64,000 nt of DNA from Cellulomonas hominis (GTDB lineage Bacteria; Actinomycetota; Actinomycetes; Actinomycetales; Cellulomonadaceae). Below the pieces are notes generated by a model, which was given only the letters and a program-made list of their open reading frames with translations, was not told where the DNA came from and ran no database searches. The stretch is taken from contig NZ_JACHDN010000001.1 of NCBI RefSeq assembly GCF_014201095.1, forward strand, positions 558,001-622,000. Reading direction: 5' to 3'. The position numbers and the translations under genes were made by a program. Of this stretch, positions 33,949-39,246 are shown in pieces; the first letter of the stretch is position 1, and each line of letters opens with the position of its first letter.

Positions 33949-33966
33949 TAATGAGAACGGGTATCA
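33949..33966 (+). promoter_or_regulatory. Zur-like box and promoter of aztD
   Basis: TAATGAGAACGGGTATCA shares 13 of 18 positions with the classic Zur/Fur-type palindrome TAATGATAATCATTATCA and begins with the same GGTAATGAGAA as the box upstream of the zinc-independent ribosomal genes. A TAACGT -10 candidate (33974-33979) follows, 6 nt before the ATG. Zinc-dependent repression is inferred from the box and from the gene downstream. Confidence 0.65.
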
Positions 33967-33985
33967 CTCGTGTTAACGTGCGGGC

Positions 33986-35323
33986 ATGAAGCACACCCCC
34001 ACCCGACCGCGCGCGCTCGGGGCCCTCGGCCTCGGGCTGTCCCTCGCCCTGCTCGCCGCCTGCGCCGACACCGGCTCCGGCTCCGGTGACGCCGCCCCGG
34101 CCGCCGACCCGACCACCGACGCCGCGCCCGCCGCCACCGAGGTCGCCACCGCGAAGCCCCGCCTCGTCCTCACGTACGACGGCGGCATCCAGGTGCTCGA
34201 CGCCGACACGCTCGAGCTGGTCGCCGACCTCCCGCTCGAGGGGTTCAACCGCGTCAACGCCGCCGGCGACAACCGGCACGTGATGGTCTCCACGACCGGC
34301 GGGTTCCGCGTCCTCGACGCAGGCACGTGGTCGGAGCCGCACGGCGACCACTCCCACTCGTACACCAGCGACCCCGTGCTCACCGACGTCACCTGGTCCG
34401 CCGAGAAGCCCGGCCACGTCGTCCCGCACGAGGGCCGCACGGCCCTGTTCGACGACGGCACGGGCACGATCACCGTCCTCGACTCGGGCGAGGTCGGCGA
34501 CGCCGGCGCCGAGGTCCGCGAGCTGACCACCCCGTCGGCCCACCACGGGGTCGCGGTCGAGCTGGCCGACGGCACGCTCGTCGTCTCCGAGGGCACCGAG
34601 GACGCCCGCACCGGCATCCGCGTCCTGGACGCCGAGGGCACCGAGGTCGCCGCCTCCGCCGAGTGCCCCGGCGTGCACGGCGAGGCCGTCGCCGCGGACG
34701 AGGCCGTCGTCATCGGCTGCGAGGACGGCGCGGTCGTCTACGCGGGCGGGAGCATCCAGAAGGTCGCCGCGCCGGACGCGTACGGCCGCATCGGCAACCA
34801 GGCCGGCACCGAGGCGTCCCCGATCGTCCTGGGCGACTACAAGTCCGACCCGGACGCCGAGCTCGAGCGACCGACCCGCGTCTCGCTGATCGACACCCGC
34901 GACGCGTCCCTGCGCCTGGTCGACCTGCCGTCCTCCTACACGTTCCGCTCGCTGGCCCGCGGCGACGACGGCGAGGCCCTGGTGCTCGGCACCGACGGCT
35001 CGCTGCACGTCATCGACCCGGAGTCCGGCACCCTCGTCCGCTCGATCCCGGTGGTCGACGCCTGGGAGGAGCCGGACGAGTGGCAGTCCCCGCGCCCGGC
35101 GGTCACCGTCCTCGACGGCACGGCCTACGTCACCGACCCGGCCGCGGACGCGGTGCACGCGGTGGACGTCGTCACCGGCGAGGTCTGGCTGAGCGCGACC
35201 CTCGAGGTCACCCCGAACGAGCTCACCACGGCCTCCGGCCAGGTCGACCCCCACGCGTCCGGGGACCACGCCCACGAGGACGAGCACGACGAGCACGCCC
35301 ACGAGGACGAGCACACCGACTGA
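33986..35323 (+). CDS. aztD: AztD-like zinc metallochaperone lipoprotein, 445 aa
   Basis: Lipoprotein (signal MKHTPTRPRALGALGLGLSL, lipobox cysteine C26 in LLAAC), Asp/Ala linker, then a beta-propeller-like domain with repeated short strands (PRLVLTYDGGIQVLDADTLE, GIRVLDAEGTEVAAS, HVIDPESGTLVRSIPV, VHAVDVVTGEVWL) and His clusters EPHGDHSHSYTSD and TPSAHHGVAVE that suit zinc. The C-terminus is a His/Glu/Asp tail (HAHEDEHDEHAHEDEH). These traits match AztD, the periplasmic chaperone that loads zinc onto the AztC binding protein. The gene for an AztC/ZnuA-like protein follows. Expression is probably under Zur. Confidence 0.82.
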   Translation: MKHTPTRPRALGALGLGLSLALLAACADTGSGSGDAAPAADPTTDAAPAATEVATAKPRLVLTYDGGIQVLDADTLELVADLPLEGFNRVNAAGDNRHVMVSTTGGFRVLDAGTWSEPHGDHSHSYTSDPVLTDVTWSAEKPGHVVPHEGRTALFDDGTGTITVLDSGEVGDAGAEVRELTTPSAHHGVAVELADGTLVVSEGTEDARTGIRVLDAEGTEVAASAECPGVHGEAVAADEAVVIGCEDGAVVYAGGSIQKVAAPDAYGRIGNQAGTEASPIVLGDYKSDPDAELERPTRVSLIDTRDASLRLVDLPSSYTFRSLARGDDGEALVLGTDGSLHVIDPESGTLVRSIPVVDAWEEPDEWQSPRPAVTVLDGTAYVTDPAADAVHAVDVVTGEVWLSATLEVTPNELTTASGQVDPHASGDHAHEDEHDEHAHEDEHTD

Positions 35324-35350
35324 CCCGTCCCCCATCGACCCACTGACCTC

Positions 35351-35410
35351 GCCGAGTGGAGAGTTCTGCCCGACACGCGCGGCGCGTCGTGCCAGAACTC
35401 TCCACTCGGC
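35351..35410. repeat. Long palindrome (P5) between aztD and the zinc-binding protein gene
   Basis: Perfect 19-bp arms (GCCGAGTGGAGAGTTCTG and one further base, with complement) around a centre containing ACACGCGCGGCGCGT. Same plan as the palindromes at 15.4-16.05 kb, intermediate between types A and B. It may end the aztD message or merely be a dispersed repeat. Confidence 0.88.
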
Positions 35411-35450
35411 ACGCGTCCGGTCCGTCCGGGCGCCGCCCCGGAGGAACCCC

Positions 35451-36422
35451 GTGCCCCGACGCACCCGCCCCGCCCGCACCACCTCCCGCACCACCCGCAC
35501 GACCCGCACCGCCGCGCTCGCGGCCGGCCTCGCCCTCGCCGCCGGCCTCACCCTCGGGCTGGCCGCCTGCGCGCCCGCCGCCGACGACGGCCGGCACGAC
35601 GTGGTCGCCGCGTTCTACCCCCTGCAGTACGTCGCCGAGCGCGTCGGCGGCGCGCACGTCGCCGTCACCTCGCTCACCCCGCCCGGCGGCGAGTCCCACG
35701 ACCTGGAGCTGTCGCCGAGCGCGGTCGCCGGGCTGGGGGACGCGGACCTCGTCGTCTACCTGTCGGGGTTCCAGGCGGCGACCGACGCGGCCGTCGCCTC
35801 GACCGCGCCGGCGCACACCGTGGACGCCGCGCAGGCGGCCGCCCTCGAGGTCGCGCCCGACGGCGTCGCACCCGGCACGTCCGGCACGTTCGGCACCAGC
35901 AGCCTGGACCCGCACTTCTGGCTCGACCCCACCCGGCTCGCGGACGTCGGCCACCAGGTCGCGGACGCGCTGGCCGAGGTCGACCCCGAGCACGCCGCGG
36001 AGTTCGCCGGCGCCGCGGACGACCTGGCGGCGGACCTGGACGCGCTGGACGGCGAGCTCGCCGCGGGCCTGGCGGCGTGCCGCGGCGCGACCCTGGTCGC
36101 CTCGCACGAGGCGTTCGGCTACCTCGCGCAGCGCTACGGCCTGCACCAGGTCGGCCTCAGCGGCATCGACCCGGAGGTGGAGCCGTCGCCGGCCCGGCTG
36201 CGGGACGTCGCCGCGACCGTCCGGGCCGAGGGCGTGCGCACGCTGTACTTCGAGGCGCTCACCAGCCCGAAGGTCACGCAGACGCTCGCGGAGGACCTGG
36301 GCGTCGGGACCGCGGTGCTCGACCCGTTGGAGGGCCGCACCGAGGGCGACGAGCGCGACTACCTCGACATCATGCGGGACAACCTCGACGCGCTGGCGTC
36401 CGGCCTGGTCTGCGCGGGCTGA
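35451..36422 (+). CDS. Zinc ABC transporter substrate-binding lipoprotein (AztC/ZnuA-like), 323 aa
   Basis: Cluster A-I metal-binding protein. Signal with a Thr/Arg-rich N-region, lipobox cysteine C40 (LAAC). The zinc site residues are in place: H83 (GGESHDLELSP), H155 (LDPHFWLDP), H219 (ASHEAFGYLAQRYGL) and D291 (VLDPLEG). The His-rich loop found in many ZnuA proteins is absent, as in AztC, which takes zinc from AztD instead. GTG at 35451 with SD GGAGGA. No permease or ATPase gene is nearby, so the transporter core must be encoded elsewhere. Confidence 0.87.
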   Translation: MPRRTRPARTTSRTTRTTRTAALAAGLALAAGLTLGLAACAPAADDGRHDVVAAFYPLQYVAERVGGAHVAVTSLTPPGGESHDLELSPSAVAGLGDADLVVYLSGFQAATDAAVASTAPAHTVDAAQAAALEVAPDGVAPGTSGTFGTSSLDPHFWLDPTRLADVGHQVADALAEVDPEHAAEFAGAADDLAADLDALDGELAAGLAACRGATLVASHEAFGYLAQRYGLHQVGLSGIDPEVEPSPARLRDVAATVRAEGVRTLYFEALTSPKVTQTLAEDLGVGTAVLDPLEGRTEGDERDYLDIMRDNLDALASGLVCAG

Positions 36423-36449
36423 CCCGCGCGGGCCCGCCCGGGCCGGGGC

Positions 36450-36719
36450 TCAGTGCGACCGCAGCGCCCGCACGAGGTCGGCCTTCTTCATCGAGGACCG
36501 CCCCTCGATGCCGATCTCGGCGGCGCGCCTGCGCAGGTCGTCCACGGTCCAGTCCTCGTACGACCCGGACTCGCCGCCCTTGCGGCCCACCGAGGACCGG
36601 CCGCGCGCGGCGGCGGCGTTCGCGATCCGCGCGGACTTCTCCTTGCTGTTGCCCTCGTCCCGGAGCTCCTCGTAGAGCTCCTTGTCCTTGACGCTCGGAC
36701 CGGAGTCACGGCGCGGCAT
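36450..36719 (-). CDS. Small Rho-N/SAP-like domain protein (DUF7218-type), 89 aa
   Basis: Basic, probably nucleic-acid-associated protein: MPRRDSGPSVKDKELYEELRD, then a conserved central segment (GNSKEKSARIANAAAARGRSSVGRKGG) and a C-terminal helix-extended-helix like the Rho termination factor N-terminal domain (WTVDDLRRRAAEIGIEGRSSMKKADLVRALRSH). Common in actinobacteria, function unknown. Monocistronic between the zinc-binding protein (convergent) and mrf. Confidence 0.78.
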   Translation of the reverse strand: MPRRDSGPSVKDKELYEELRDEGNSKEKSARIANAAAARGRSSVGRKGGESGSYEDWTVDDLRRRAAEIGIEGRSSMKKADLVRALRSH

Positions 36720-36818
36720 GGCGGCCTCCTCGCAGGCGACGACGTTCGGTCCCCTCGACCATGCCCCCGCCGGCACCGTGACGCATCCGCAGCACCGGCA
36801 GCCCCCCGGGCGACCGGC

Positions 36819-37919
36819 CTACGCCGCCCGGTCCCCCAGCCACGGCGCCAGCACGTCCTCGCGCCCGAGCCACGGGTGCAGCCCGCGCGCGTGCTCGTCG
36901 GCGGTGAGCAGCACGTCCTCGAACGCCGCGAGCAGGTCCGCCCGCACGTCCTGGACGCCGGTGAACACCAGCCGCGTGCCGGGCGCGCGCCGCCCCCAGG
37001 TGCCGACCTCGCCGACGGACAGCTGCCCGCCCGCGCCGTCCCACGCGCACACCGAGTCCGGCCGGCTCGGCACCCAGAACCGGCCGCGGCTGCGGTGCCG
37101 CCCCTGCCCGAGCCGGGCGACGTCCGCGACCAGCCGCTCGGGGTGCAGGGCCCGGTCGGCCCGCAGGTCGAGCGTCCACACGCCGTGCCGCGTCGGCGCG
37201 TCCGGCACCGGTGCGGCGCGCCGCGGGTCGAGCCGCCGGTCGCCCGCGCGCAGGTCGTGCGCCCCGGCGAACAGCGCCGCGGCGTCGGCCGCCAGCACGC
37301 CGTCCACGCGGAGCCCGTCGGCCGCGCGCACGTGGTCGAGCAGGTCGGAGGCGACCGGGTGCTCGGCCGGCTCCCCGGCGACCAGCACGACGTCCGCGTG
37401 CGCGACCTGGGCCGCGAGCGCCTCGCCGACGGCGCGCTCGTCGTCCGCGGTGAGCGCGACCCCGCGCTCGTCGAGCAGGTCGTCGCCCAGCAGGTCGTCC
37501 TCGAACGCGGCGAGGTCGAGCGCCGCGACGACGGAGGCGAGCCGCAGGCCGCGCAGCCGGCCGGCACGACCGGCGGCGGCCCCGAGGGCCCGCGTGACCG
37601 GCAGGGACTCCGCCGACACCGGCAGCGCGAGCAGCACCTGGTCCCACCGCGGGTCGCGCGCGAGGCGCTCCAGGGTCGGCACCGCGTCCTCGCGCACCGA
37701 GCAGGACAGGCACGCGTGCGCGAGCGGCACGAGGACGTCCTCGAGCACTCCGCCGGCGTCGGCGACCACGCGGCGGATCCCGCCGCCGTCGGGCCCGTCG
37801 ACGATGTCGTGCCGCAGCACGACGGTCCGCGGGTGGTCGACGACCACGCCGAGCGCGACGGCGTCGCGGAGCAGGGGGCCCACGGTGGCGAGCACCACGA
37901 GGGGCTTCGGCTGCGTCAT
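36819..37919 (-). CDS. mrf: MRF-like, CobW-related ribosome-hibernation recruiting factor, 366 aa
   Basis: COG0523/CobW-type protein without a usable P-loop: where GxxxxGK[ST] is expected, the N-terminus reads PLVVLATVGPLLRDA. The metal-binding cysteines are kept (C70, C73 in HACLSCSVREDAVPTL), as are the C-terminal CobW-like blocks (ALHPERLVADVARLGQGRHRSRGRFWVPSRP and GTRLVFTGV). This pattern matches the mycobacterial MRF protein, which recruits the hibernation factor to ribosomes carrying zinc-free proteins when zinc is scarce. It is divergent from such ribosomal genes, with a Zur-like box between. Family assignment is by remembered similarity to Rv0106-type proteins. Confidence 0.75.
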   Translation of the reverse strand: MTQPKPLVVLATVGPLLRDAVALGVVVDHPRTVVLRHDIVDGPDGGGIRRVVADAGGVLEDVLVPLAHACLSCSVREDAVPTLERLARDPRWDQVLLALPVSAESLPVTRALGAAAGRAGRLRGLRLASVVAALDLAAFEDDLLGDDLLDERGVALTADDERAVGEALAAQVAHADVVLVAGEPAEHPVASDLLDHVRAADGLRVDGVLAADAAALFAGAHDLRAGDRRLDPRRAAPVPDAPTRHGVWTLDLRADRALHPERLVADVARLGQGRHRSRGRFWVPSRPDSVCAWDGAGGQLSVGEVGTWGRRAPGTRLVFTGVQDVRADLLAAFEDVLLTADEHARGLHPWLGREDVLAPWLGDRAA

Positions 37920-37926
37920 GCCCGAC

Positions 37927-37966
37927 AGCCTAACGCTTGTCGCGAACGATTCTCATTACCTATGAT
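37927..37966. promoter_or_regulatory. Divergent leaderless promoters around one Zur-like box (mrf / rpmB)
   Basis: The Zur-like box is at 37942-37958 (on the - strand TAATGAGAATCGTTCGC, 13 of 17 positions matching TAATGATAATCATTATC). To its right TATGAT (37961-37966) lies 6 nt before the rpmB ATG; to its left, on the - strand, TAGGCT (37932-37927) lies 7 nt before the mrf start. One repressor-bound box would silence both directions when zinc is ample. Confidence 0.75.
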
Positions 37967-37972
37967 GACGAC

Positions 37973-38209
37973 ATGTCCGCTCACTGCCAGGTCCTCGGGA
38001 CCTCGCCCGGCTTCGGCCATGCGATCTCGCACTCCCACCGGCGCACGAAGCGCCGCTTCGACCCGAACATCCAGCGCAAGCACTACTGGGTGCCCTCGCT
38101 CGGCCGGCACGTCACGCTCACCGTCTCGGCCCGGGGCATCCGGACGATCGACGAGCTCGGCATCGAGGTCGTCGTCGCCCGGATCCGTGCCCGCGGGGAG
38201 AAGGTCTGA
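37973..38209 (+). CDS. rpmB: Ribosomal protein L28, zinc-independent paralogue, 78 aa
   Basis: Large-subunit protein L28 ([56 protein letters not shown]). The paired CxxC zinc motifs of the zinc-binding form are missing; only a lone Cys near the N-terminus remains. First of six packed ribosomal genes; the stop overlaps the rpmG ATG (TGATG). Probably leaderless, starting at the ATG after TATGAT. Replaces the zinc form under zinc shortage. Confidence 0.93.
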
Positions 38210-38376
38210 TGGCCCGCGCCGCCGACGTCCGCCCGATCATCAAGCTGCGCTCCACCGCGGGGACCGGGTTCACCTACGTCACCCGCAAGAACCGCCGCAA
38301 CGACCCCGACCGGCTCGTGCTGAAGAAGTACGACCCCGTCGTCCGGCGGCACGTCGACTTCAGAGAGGAGCGCTGA
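38209..38376 (+). CDS. rpmG: Ribosomal protein L33, zinc-independent paralogue, 55 aa
   Basis: L33 of the 50S subunit ([39 protein letters not shown]). It has no cysteine, so it cannot make the zinc ribbon of the C+ form. The ATG at 38209 shares its A with the rpmB stop. The end of the gene contains the SD (AGAGAGGAG) of rpsN. Confidence 0.93.
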
Positions 38377-38377
38377 C

Positions 38378-38683
38378 ATGGCCAAGAAGTCGAAGATCGC
38401 CGCGAACGAGCGCCGCAGGCAGGTCGTCGCCCGCTTCGCCGAGCGCCGCCTGGAGCTCAAGGCCGCCGCCGTGAACCCGCACCTGACCGAGGCCGAGCGC
38501 GTCGCGGCCCGGGCCGCCCTGCACGCCCTGCCCCGTGACGCGAGCCCGACCCGCGTCCGCAACCGGGACGTCGCCGACGGCCGGCCGCGCGGGTACGTGG
38601 GGAAGTTCGGGCTGTCCCGCGTCCGGATGCGCGCCATGGCCCACCGCGGCGAGCTGCCCGGCGTCACGAAGTCCAGCTGGTGA
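38378..38683 (+). CDS. rpsN: Ribosomal protein S14, zinc-independent (long) form, 101 aa
   Basis: 30S protein S14 of the roughly 100-residue type ([60 protein letters not shown]). The short zinc-binding form is about 61 residues with two CxxC motifs; neither is present here. 1 nt after rpmG, SD inside rpmG. Confidence 0.94.
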
Positions 38684-38693
38684 GGAGAACGAG

Positions 38694-38957
38694 ATGAAGC
38701 AGGGCATCCACCCCGACTACCACCCGGTGGTCTTCCGGGACATCAGCGCGGACTTCGCGTTCCTGACCCGGTCCACGATCACGTCCGAGAAGACCGTCGA
38801 GTGGCCGGACGGGAACACCTACCCGGTCGTCGACGTCGACGTGTCCTCCGCCAGCCACCCGTTCTCCACGGGCAGGTCCCGCGTCCTGGACACCGCCGGC
38901 CGCGTCGAGAAGTTCCGCCGGCGCTACGGCATCACCGCCCCCGAGGAGACCCGATGA
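38694..38957 (+). CDS. rpmE2: Ribosomal protein L31 type B, 87 aa
   Basis: Zinc-free L31 ([68 protein letters not shown]). Type B lacks the CxxC of type A and is known to be induced under zinc limitation. SD GAGGAGAAC precedes the ATG; the stop overlaps rpmJ (ATGA). Confidence 0.94.
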
Positions 38958-39076
38958 AGGTGCGCGCGTCCCTGGCGTCCCTGAAGAAGAAGGAGGGGTC
39001 GATCGTGGTGCGCCGCCACGGCAAGACCTTCGTCCTCAACAAGAAGAACCCGCGCTGGAAGGCGAGGCAGGGCTGA
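38954..39076 (+). CDS. rpmJ: Ribosomal protein L36, zinc-independent paralogue, 40 aa
   Basis: L36 ([20 protein letters not shown], then [20 protein letters not shown]). The usual C-x2-C-x12-C-x4-H zinc site is entirely replaced (no cysteine). Starts in the rpmE2 stop (ATGA) and ends in the rpmF start (TGATG). Confidence 0.92.
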
Positions 39077-39246
39077 TGGCCGTCCCCAAGCGCAAGCTCT
39101 CCCGCGCCAGCACCCGCACCCGGCGGTCGCAGTGGAAGGCGACCCCCGTCCCGCTGACCACCGCCCGCACCCCCGACGGCCGCACCGTCGAGGTCCCCCG
39201 CCGCCTCGTGCGCGCCGTCGAACGCGGCCTCGTCGACCCCGCCTGA
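39076..39246 (+). CDS. rpmF: Ribosomal protein L32, zinc-independent paralogue, 56 aa
   Basis: L32 ([53 protein letters not shown]). The family N-terminus AVPKRK-S is retained, but the four zinc-ligand cysteines are absent. Last gene of the six-gene cluster; overlaps the rpmJ stop by one base. Confidence 0.9.

Follow-up and report, generated by a model that had tools for sequence, protein, structure and literature searches.

A conserved run of six zinc-free ribosomal protein genes beside zinc-capture genes in Cellulomonas hominis reads as a zinc-starvation module

A 64,000-nucleotide stretch of the Cellulomonas hominis genome (the window; positions 558001-622000 of the single 4,489,147-base contig of this 4.49-Mb genome) contains a locus at 33949-39246, in the window numbering used throughout, that reads as a response to zinc starvation. 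Its core is a run of six genes encoding ribosomal proteins that lack zinc ribbons. The run faces a divergently transcribed gene for an MRF-like protein of the COG0523/CobW family, and beyond the latter lie aztD, which encodes a zinc metallochaperone, and a gene encoding a zinc-binding protein. Zur-like operators precede aztD and occupy the divergent spacer. The module holds up on analysis and is conserved in relatives, and its regulation and function are predictions from sequence.

The ribosomal protein run spans 37973-39246 (1274 bp) on the forward strand in the order L28, L33, S14, L31, L36, L32, and none of the products has a zinc ribbon. L28 (37973..38209), an rpmB paralogue of the zinc-free form, matches TIGR00009 with 81 bits and its PDB matches include 9e16 'L28 C-'. 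The zinc-free L33 (38209..38376) matches NF001860 (84 bits) and the zinc-free 101-residue form of S14 (38378..38683) matches NF006477 (129.5 bits), with PDB matches that include 9e16 'S14 C-'. The zinc-free type B forms of L31 (38694..38957) and L36 (38954..39076) match NF002462 (132.5 bits) and NF002021 (71 bits), respectively. The match of L32 (39076..39246) to TIGR01031 (25.6 bits) covers residues 2-25 and stops before the zinc-ribbon half. L33, S14, L31, L36, and L32 have no cysteine and L28 has one. Stop and start codons overlap by 1 nt at L28/L33, 4 nt at L31/L36, and 1 nt at L36/L32, and 53 bp separate the L28 end of the run from the start of the MRF-like gene. These family matches and distances bear out the initial annotation of the sequence, which had described six ribosomal proteins without CxxC motifs, packed with overlaps into 1.27 kb and facing mrf across a 53-bp spacer.

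Each of the six proteins has a zinc-type counterpart elsewhere in the genome. When the six proteins were joined into one query, the search returned CxxC copies of L28, L31, L33, S14, and L32 (the last 65.5% identical over 29 residues to the L32 of the run), and a search of the genome for the L36 family gave one further true copy, which bears CxxC. The initial annotation had allowed that zinc-binding paralogues might be absent, leaving the run as the sole source of these proteins; as a zinc paralogue of each was found, that possibility is rejected. According to PMC5912738, eight ribosomal proteins have zinc-free forms: S4, S14, S18, L28, L31, L32, L33, and L36. In this genome six of the eight are of the zinc type with a zinc-free twin in the run. 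The other two, S18 and S4, are encoded by one gene each and neither has CxxC; hence the one transcript of the run could free the ribosome of zinc-ribbon proteins.

Two Zur-like operators fit a 21-base pattern, TARTGANAAYSRTTNTCRYTA. Box 1 (33949..33969, forward strand) lies upstream of aztD and has two mismatches, whereas box 2 (37938..37958, reverse strand), common to both divergent promoters and conserved in relatives, has three. When three mismatches were allowed, these were exactly the two places found in the genome, and the reversed pattern gave none. Note that the pattern was composed with both boxes in view and thus the genome scan says no more than that all other places fit it less well. 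None of 500 shuffles of the aztD upstream region reached three mismatches. The initial annotation had placed Zur-like boxes before aztD and in the divergent spacer and both are present, although with ends that differ from those it gave (33949-33966 and 37942-37958).

The putative L28 promoter elements, a -35 (TTGTCG, 37937..37942; TTGACG in many relatives) and a -10 (TATGAT, 37961..37966) with an 18-nt spacer, both on the forward strand, flank box 2. As the -10 lies just 6 nt before the L28 ATG, a leaderless transcript is predicted. On the reverse strand a putative -10 of the MRF-like gene (TAGGCT, 37927..37932) precedes its ATG by 7 nt, and a putative -10 (TAACGT, 33974..33979, forward strand) stands 6 nt before the ATG of aztD, the start of which may also be leaderless.

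The arrangement upstream of L28 was compared in relatives in two ways: in an inspection of loci that match both MRF and L28 (L044, L046, L048, L056, L057, and L061 lie outside it), and in a count over 105 loci, which gave 77 distinct L28 upstreams. Of the 77 upstreams, 54 have a box with no more than four mismatches at up to 60 nt from L28, versus 0.08% of 3850 letter shuffles. The same criterion applied to the other genes of the run gave 3/45 for L33, 0/82 for S14, 11/75 for L31, 3/70 for L36, and 0/43 for L32; some loci have L31 at the head of a separate unit. TANNNT was found 5-8 nt before L28 in 34 of the 77 upstreams (4.8% of shuffles) and at none of the five internal genes, and many of the other loci have a longer L28 leader. 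The aztD upstreams are less uniform: among 12 loci, seven have a box with at most four mismatches, two have one with five or six, and three have none better than seven, and the distance varies. A chance origin of the operator was rejected on the basis of the genome scan plus the conservation upstream of L28 relative to shuffles. The operator conservation and the zinc paralogues elsewhere support the view, first put forward in the initial annotation, of zinc-sparing ribosomal proteins behind a Zur-like operator.

The run and the MRF-like gene travel together. A search for MRF-like genes gave 43 positives among 118 genomes (that of C. hominis included), and the run is present in 29 of 81 genomes of the genus. 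In the 72 genus genomes searched for both (G000-G071), the MRF-like gene and the run occurred in the identical set of 26 and 46 had neither, a co-occurrence that ignores shared ancestry; the MRF misses not listed follow from the tally and a few of the 46 double negatives are incomplete assemblies. All six ribosomal proteins were beside MRF in 22 of 26 same-genus loci, two of the remainder lacking L31 and two ending early. Among named genomes, the best 80 of 147 confirmed MRF loci were kept (some ended by contig ends), 34 of which hold all six ribosomal proteins within 4.5 kb and six of which hold none. The genomes in these comparisons are related to one another, and their counts are not independent. 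The idea that the six-gene run is unique is therefore rejected, and the set is not exceptional in the way the initial annotation suggested when it called this one of the most complete such sets.

The MRF-like gene (36819..37919, reverse strand) encodes a COG0523/CobW protein that contains a CobW_C domain, a truncated match to the CobW nucleotide domain, and a CxxC motif. Residues C70, C73, and R76 are invariant across 34 aligned relatives and no Walker A motif (P-loop) was found among the 120 homologues listed of 350 found. The closest MRF-like protein in the best 80 of 147 loci is that of Cellulomonas sp. IC4_254 (88% identical). The AlphaFold model of the protein (pLDDT 95.2, pTM 0.92) gave as its sole PDB matches at E <= 0.001 three entries for YjiA, a COG0523 GTPase, with a poor overall superposition (query TM-scores of 0.35-0.36), and the matches of a PDB profile search with alignment A1 were weak and confined to YjiA. 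A quick tree of 59 proteins drew on 23 of 34 rows of alignment A3 and on 13 of 25 MRF-cut-off-passing rows; it has no bootstrap values and leaves 19 of 56 inner branches open. In this tree the P-loop-less proteins, including those passing the MRF cut-off, split from nine P-loop proteins with SH-aLRT 100%. The lack of Walker A, the retained CxxC, and the position on the same side of this branch as the proteins passing the MRF cut-off place the window protein in the P-loop-less MRF-like COG0523 group. An ordinary GTPase was rejected given the absence of the P-loop among the listed homologues and the position of the P-loop proteins on the other side of the tree. Loss of the P-loop is not new, as loss of the GTPase motifs of Rv0106 was reported in 2009 (PMC2770081). 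The island-type rows do not form one clade, and row L215 is on a very long branch.

Whether this protein is a hibernation recruiter, as the initial annotation supposed in calling it MRF, is a separate question. In mycobacteria, according to PMC13418864, MRF binds zinc and is degraded by Clp as long as zinc is ample; once zinc is lacking, it is stable and promotes the recruitment of MPY. The window protein scores 114.3 bits with the MRF model NF047431, the curated cut-off of which is 375, and some COG0523 proteins that retain the P-loop score higher (e.g., 155.7 bits). That cut-off was passed in 25 of 394 genomes of the class, not including that of C. hominis; we infer that the passing genomes (families f22 and f58) are mycobacteria and kin. 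Within the tree the window protein falls in a subclade of 13 from Cellulomonadaceae, Dermabacteraceae, and Demequinaceae, apart from the proteins that pass. With a score so far below the cut-off, a role of the window protein in hibernation is a suggestion drawn from the tree relationship, and the recruiter designation is not established. The strongest competing explanation accepts a zinc-sparing run but takes the MRF-like protein as a zinc-sensing or zinc-handling COG0523 derivative with another target, for example ribosomal protein exchange or metal delivery, rather than as a recruiter. Both its score and its place outside the clade of passing proteins favor this explanation, whereas the complete separation of all P-loop-less proteins, MRF included, from the P-loop proteins, the location of MRF-like genes next to zinc-free ribosomal protein genes, and a candidate long HPF with its C-terminal domain in the genome argue for recruitment. 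We judge the non-recruiter explanation a serious contender that falls somewhat short of an even chance.

Variants of the MRF-like protein were also seen. Two genomes of one family (L223 and L224) encode P-loop-less proteins with CACC in place of CxSC. Broken-looking genes were found as two pieces in L041 (G028) and in L057 (G083) and with one in-frame TGA in L037 (G023). The ribosomal protein genes persist beside the broken gene in G028 and also in G023, the latter without an L31 match.

The zinc-capture pair lies on the forward strand. AztD (33986..35323), judged by eye to be a probable lipoprotein and with a C-terminal tail rich in His, scores 469 bits with NF038015 (cut-off 400) and matches the solved AztD structures 6cmk/6n01 with E 1.8e-32, which confirms the zinc chaperone call of the initial annotation. 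The ZnuA/AztC-like zinc-binding protein (35451..36422) matches PF01297 with 248 bits and reaches 148 bits with the AztC model, below the cut-off of 350 for membership of that family. A small DUF7218 plus Rho_N protein for which no zinc link was seen (36453-36719, reverse strand) is encoded between the binding-protein and MRF-like genes. No permease match was found anywhere in the window, aztA and aztB are not beside the pair, and the single ATPase match of the window is at 13.6 kb, about 20 kb from the pair. Only one ABC-3 permease in the genome scores strongly (189 bits; two others score about 22 bits with a cut-off of 20.1); it is encoded in a binding protein-ATPase-permease operon at 3182 kb, and it is likely that the window pair uses this distant permease. 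The binding proteins of the two sites are 54% identical, but that of the window lacks the His-rich loop of the other. All three products of the importer operon (L102 4908-7700), permease, ATPase, and binding protein, are nearer Azt than Znu models, ranking best or second best against AztB, AztA, and AztC, respectively, although all are below cut-off. This ranking raises the possibility of an AztABCD-like system split across the genome, the aztD of which is in the window.

The initial annotation made zinc capture part of the island. AztD is real and adjoins the run in C. hominis, but it is not a fixed part of the module. Of the 81 genomes of the genus, 40 encode AztD, namely 25 of the 29 that bear the run and 15 of the 52 that do not (Fisher p 6e-7, ancestry ignored), and the pair adjoins the run only in some relatives. 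It could thus be argued that the pair stands beside the run by accidental proximity, with separate regulation and history. The 15 run-less genomes, those in which AztD is far from the run (e.g., G008 and G006), and the three of 12 aztD upstreams without a box better than seven mismatches speak for this. The strong association with run-bearing genomes speaks against it, as do the aztD operator, which together with box 2 fits the pattern best genome-wide, and the importer genes that adjoin MRF-like genes in five other-genus loci (L052, L056, L058, L061, and L138, with no ribosomal protein match beside L056). On balance we regard accidental proximity as rather unlikely. In Oerskovia and Cellulosimicrobium (L127, L137, and L139), aztD is at the far end of the ribosomal protein run, with a binding-protein match nearby in L127 and not in L137 or L139.

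The genome encodes two Fur-family proteins, a candidate Zur at 4122 kb and one beside a catalase gene. Their scores with the Zur model are 44.7 and 27.1 bits with a cut-off of 167 and neither passes any NCBIfam cut-off, and hence calling the 4122-kb protein Zur is an interpretation. Just upstream of the candidate zur (L013 1899-1919) is a dyad, TGTTGAGTATGATTGTCAACC, with six mismatches, the sole such place in 3.3 kb and possibly autoregulatory. Two adjacent degenerate Zur-like palindromes (L102 7569-7610), also with six mismatches each, sit between the importer binding-protein gene and a divergent gene read as glycyl-tRNA synthetase, and are no better than chance places in that stretch. At the six-mismatch level there are eight places in the 12-kb importer stretch, one in the 3.3-kb zur stretch, and five in the window (the two true boxes included); given these numbers, a wider regulon is tentative. 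That the six genes are instead constitutive or respond to another stress without zinc control is very improbable: Streptomyces coelicolor L33B and L36 are reported to be under sigma-R rather than Zur (PMC3087516) and the candidate regulator passes no Zur model, but the operator is placed between the -35 and the -10, 54 of 77 upstreams retain it, and both of the best operator matches genome-wide flank the locus.

The arrangement is well preserved in relatives and belongs to an already known kind of system. In Streptomyces coelicolor the genes of the ribosomal protein paralogues are spread over several loci. The Zur-controlled paralogues described there are of the same six kinds, S14, L28, L31, L32, L33, and L36, with L33B and L36 under sigma-R (PMC3087516), whereas the six of the window are in one run behind one operator. 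The Mycobacterium smegmatis Zur cluster MSMEG_6045-6071, as described in PMC7174638, resembles the C. hominis locus in that zinc importers (ZnuABC), MRF (CobW-like), and zinc-free ribosomal proteins are clustered under Zur. However, its five ribosomal proteins are S18, S14, L33, L28, and L31, whereas the run has L36 and L32 in addition and no S18 (the only S18 of C. hominis has no CxxC), and znuABC takes the place of AztD and the binding protein (PMC7174638). For Corynebacterium glutamicum Zur, a motif that overlaps the core promoter, leaderless transcripts, and one motif for divergent genes are reported (PMC2823685), as predicted here, although the targets there are transporter genes rather than a ribosomal protein run and an MRF-like gene. 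In Paracoccus denitrificans AztABCD, AztD is found with a cluster A-I zinc-binding protein as in the window (PMC6689063, PMC7731109); unlike that system, the window pair has no aztA or aztB beside it and its binding protein is below the AztC cut-off. Rv0106, the Mycobacterium tuberculosis MRF, is a COG0523-like protein that lacks GTPase motifs and has CXSC for CXCC (PMC2770081), the same as the window protein, although the latter belongs to a subclade separate from the MRF-cut-off-passing proteins. The C. hominis locus contributes a complete set in a single run behind a single operator.

Taken as a whole, the locus in all probability serves this Cellulomonas-type actinobacterium as a zinc-sparing module and is most likely repressed by Zur. 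When zinc is present, Zur bound at 37938-37958 would cover the two divergent core promoters. A fall in zinc would lead to joint expression of the MRF-like gene and the L28-L33-S14-L31-L36-L32 transcript, and the six zinc-free proteins would take the place of their CxxC paralogues in new ribosomes such that zinc is spared and translation continues. The second operator would turn on AztD and the binding protein, and the zinc collected would be taken up, most likely via the one strong ABC-3 importer. The MRF-like protein, taken as analogous to mycobacterial MRF, probably uses its CxxC site to read residual zinc and steers the zinc-free ribosomes.

Several observations weigh against this scheme. 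The candidate Zur scores best with Fur models (66 bits), well above its 44.7 bits with the Zur model. The distal half of box 2 is weak, and the places before the importer operon and the candidate zur have six mismatches, which is odd if these genes are co-regulated. Pairing of binding proteins with permeases is reported to be highly specific in Paracoccus (PMC7731109), a point against use of the distant permease. The disregard of ancestry in the MRF/run co-occurrence and the shortfall of the MRF-like protein against the MRF model also count on this side.

A more specific proposal is offered tentatively. One leaderless transcript behind one Zur site may act as an all-or-none switch that takes the ribosome from six zinc ribbons down to zero, and the P-loop-less CxxC protein would be made at the same time as a zinc-sensing partner. 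Release of zinc ribbons could be all-or-none because S18 and S4 have one copy each and both lack CxxC.

Cellulomonas-type bacteria offer a compact, non-mycobacterial setting in which to ask what a zinc-ribbon-free ribosome does and whether the P-loop-less MRF-like group recruits a hibernation factor. Moreover, the presence of the run in 29 of the 81 genomes of the genus provides a natural on/off contrast between species.

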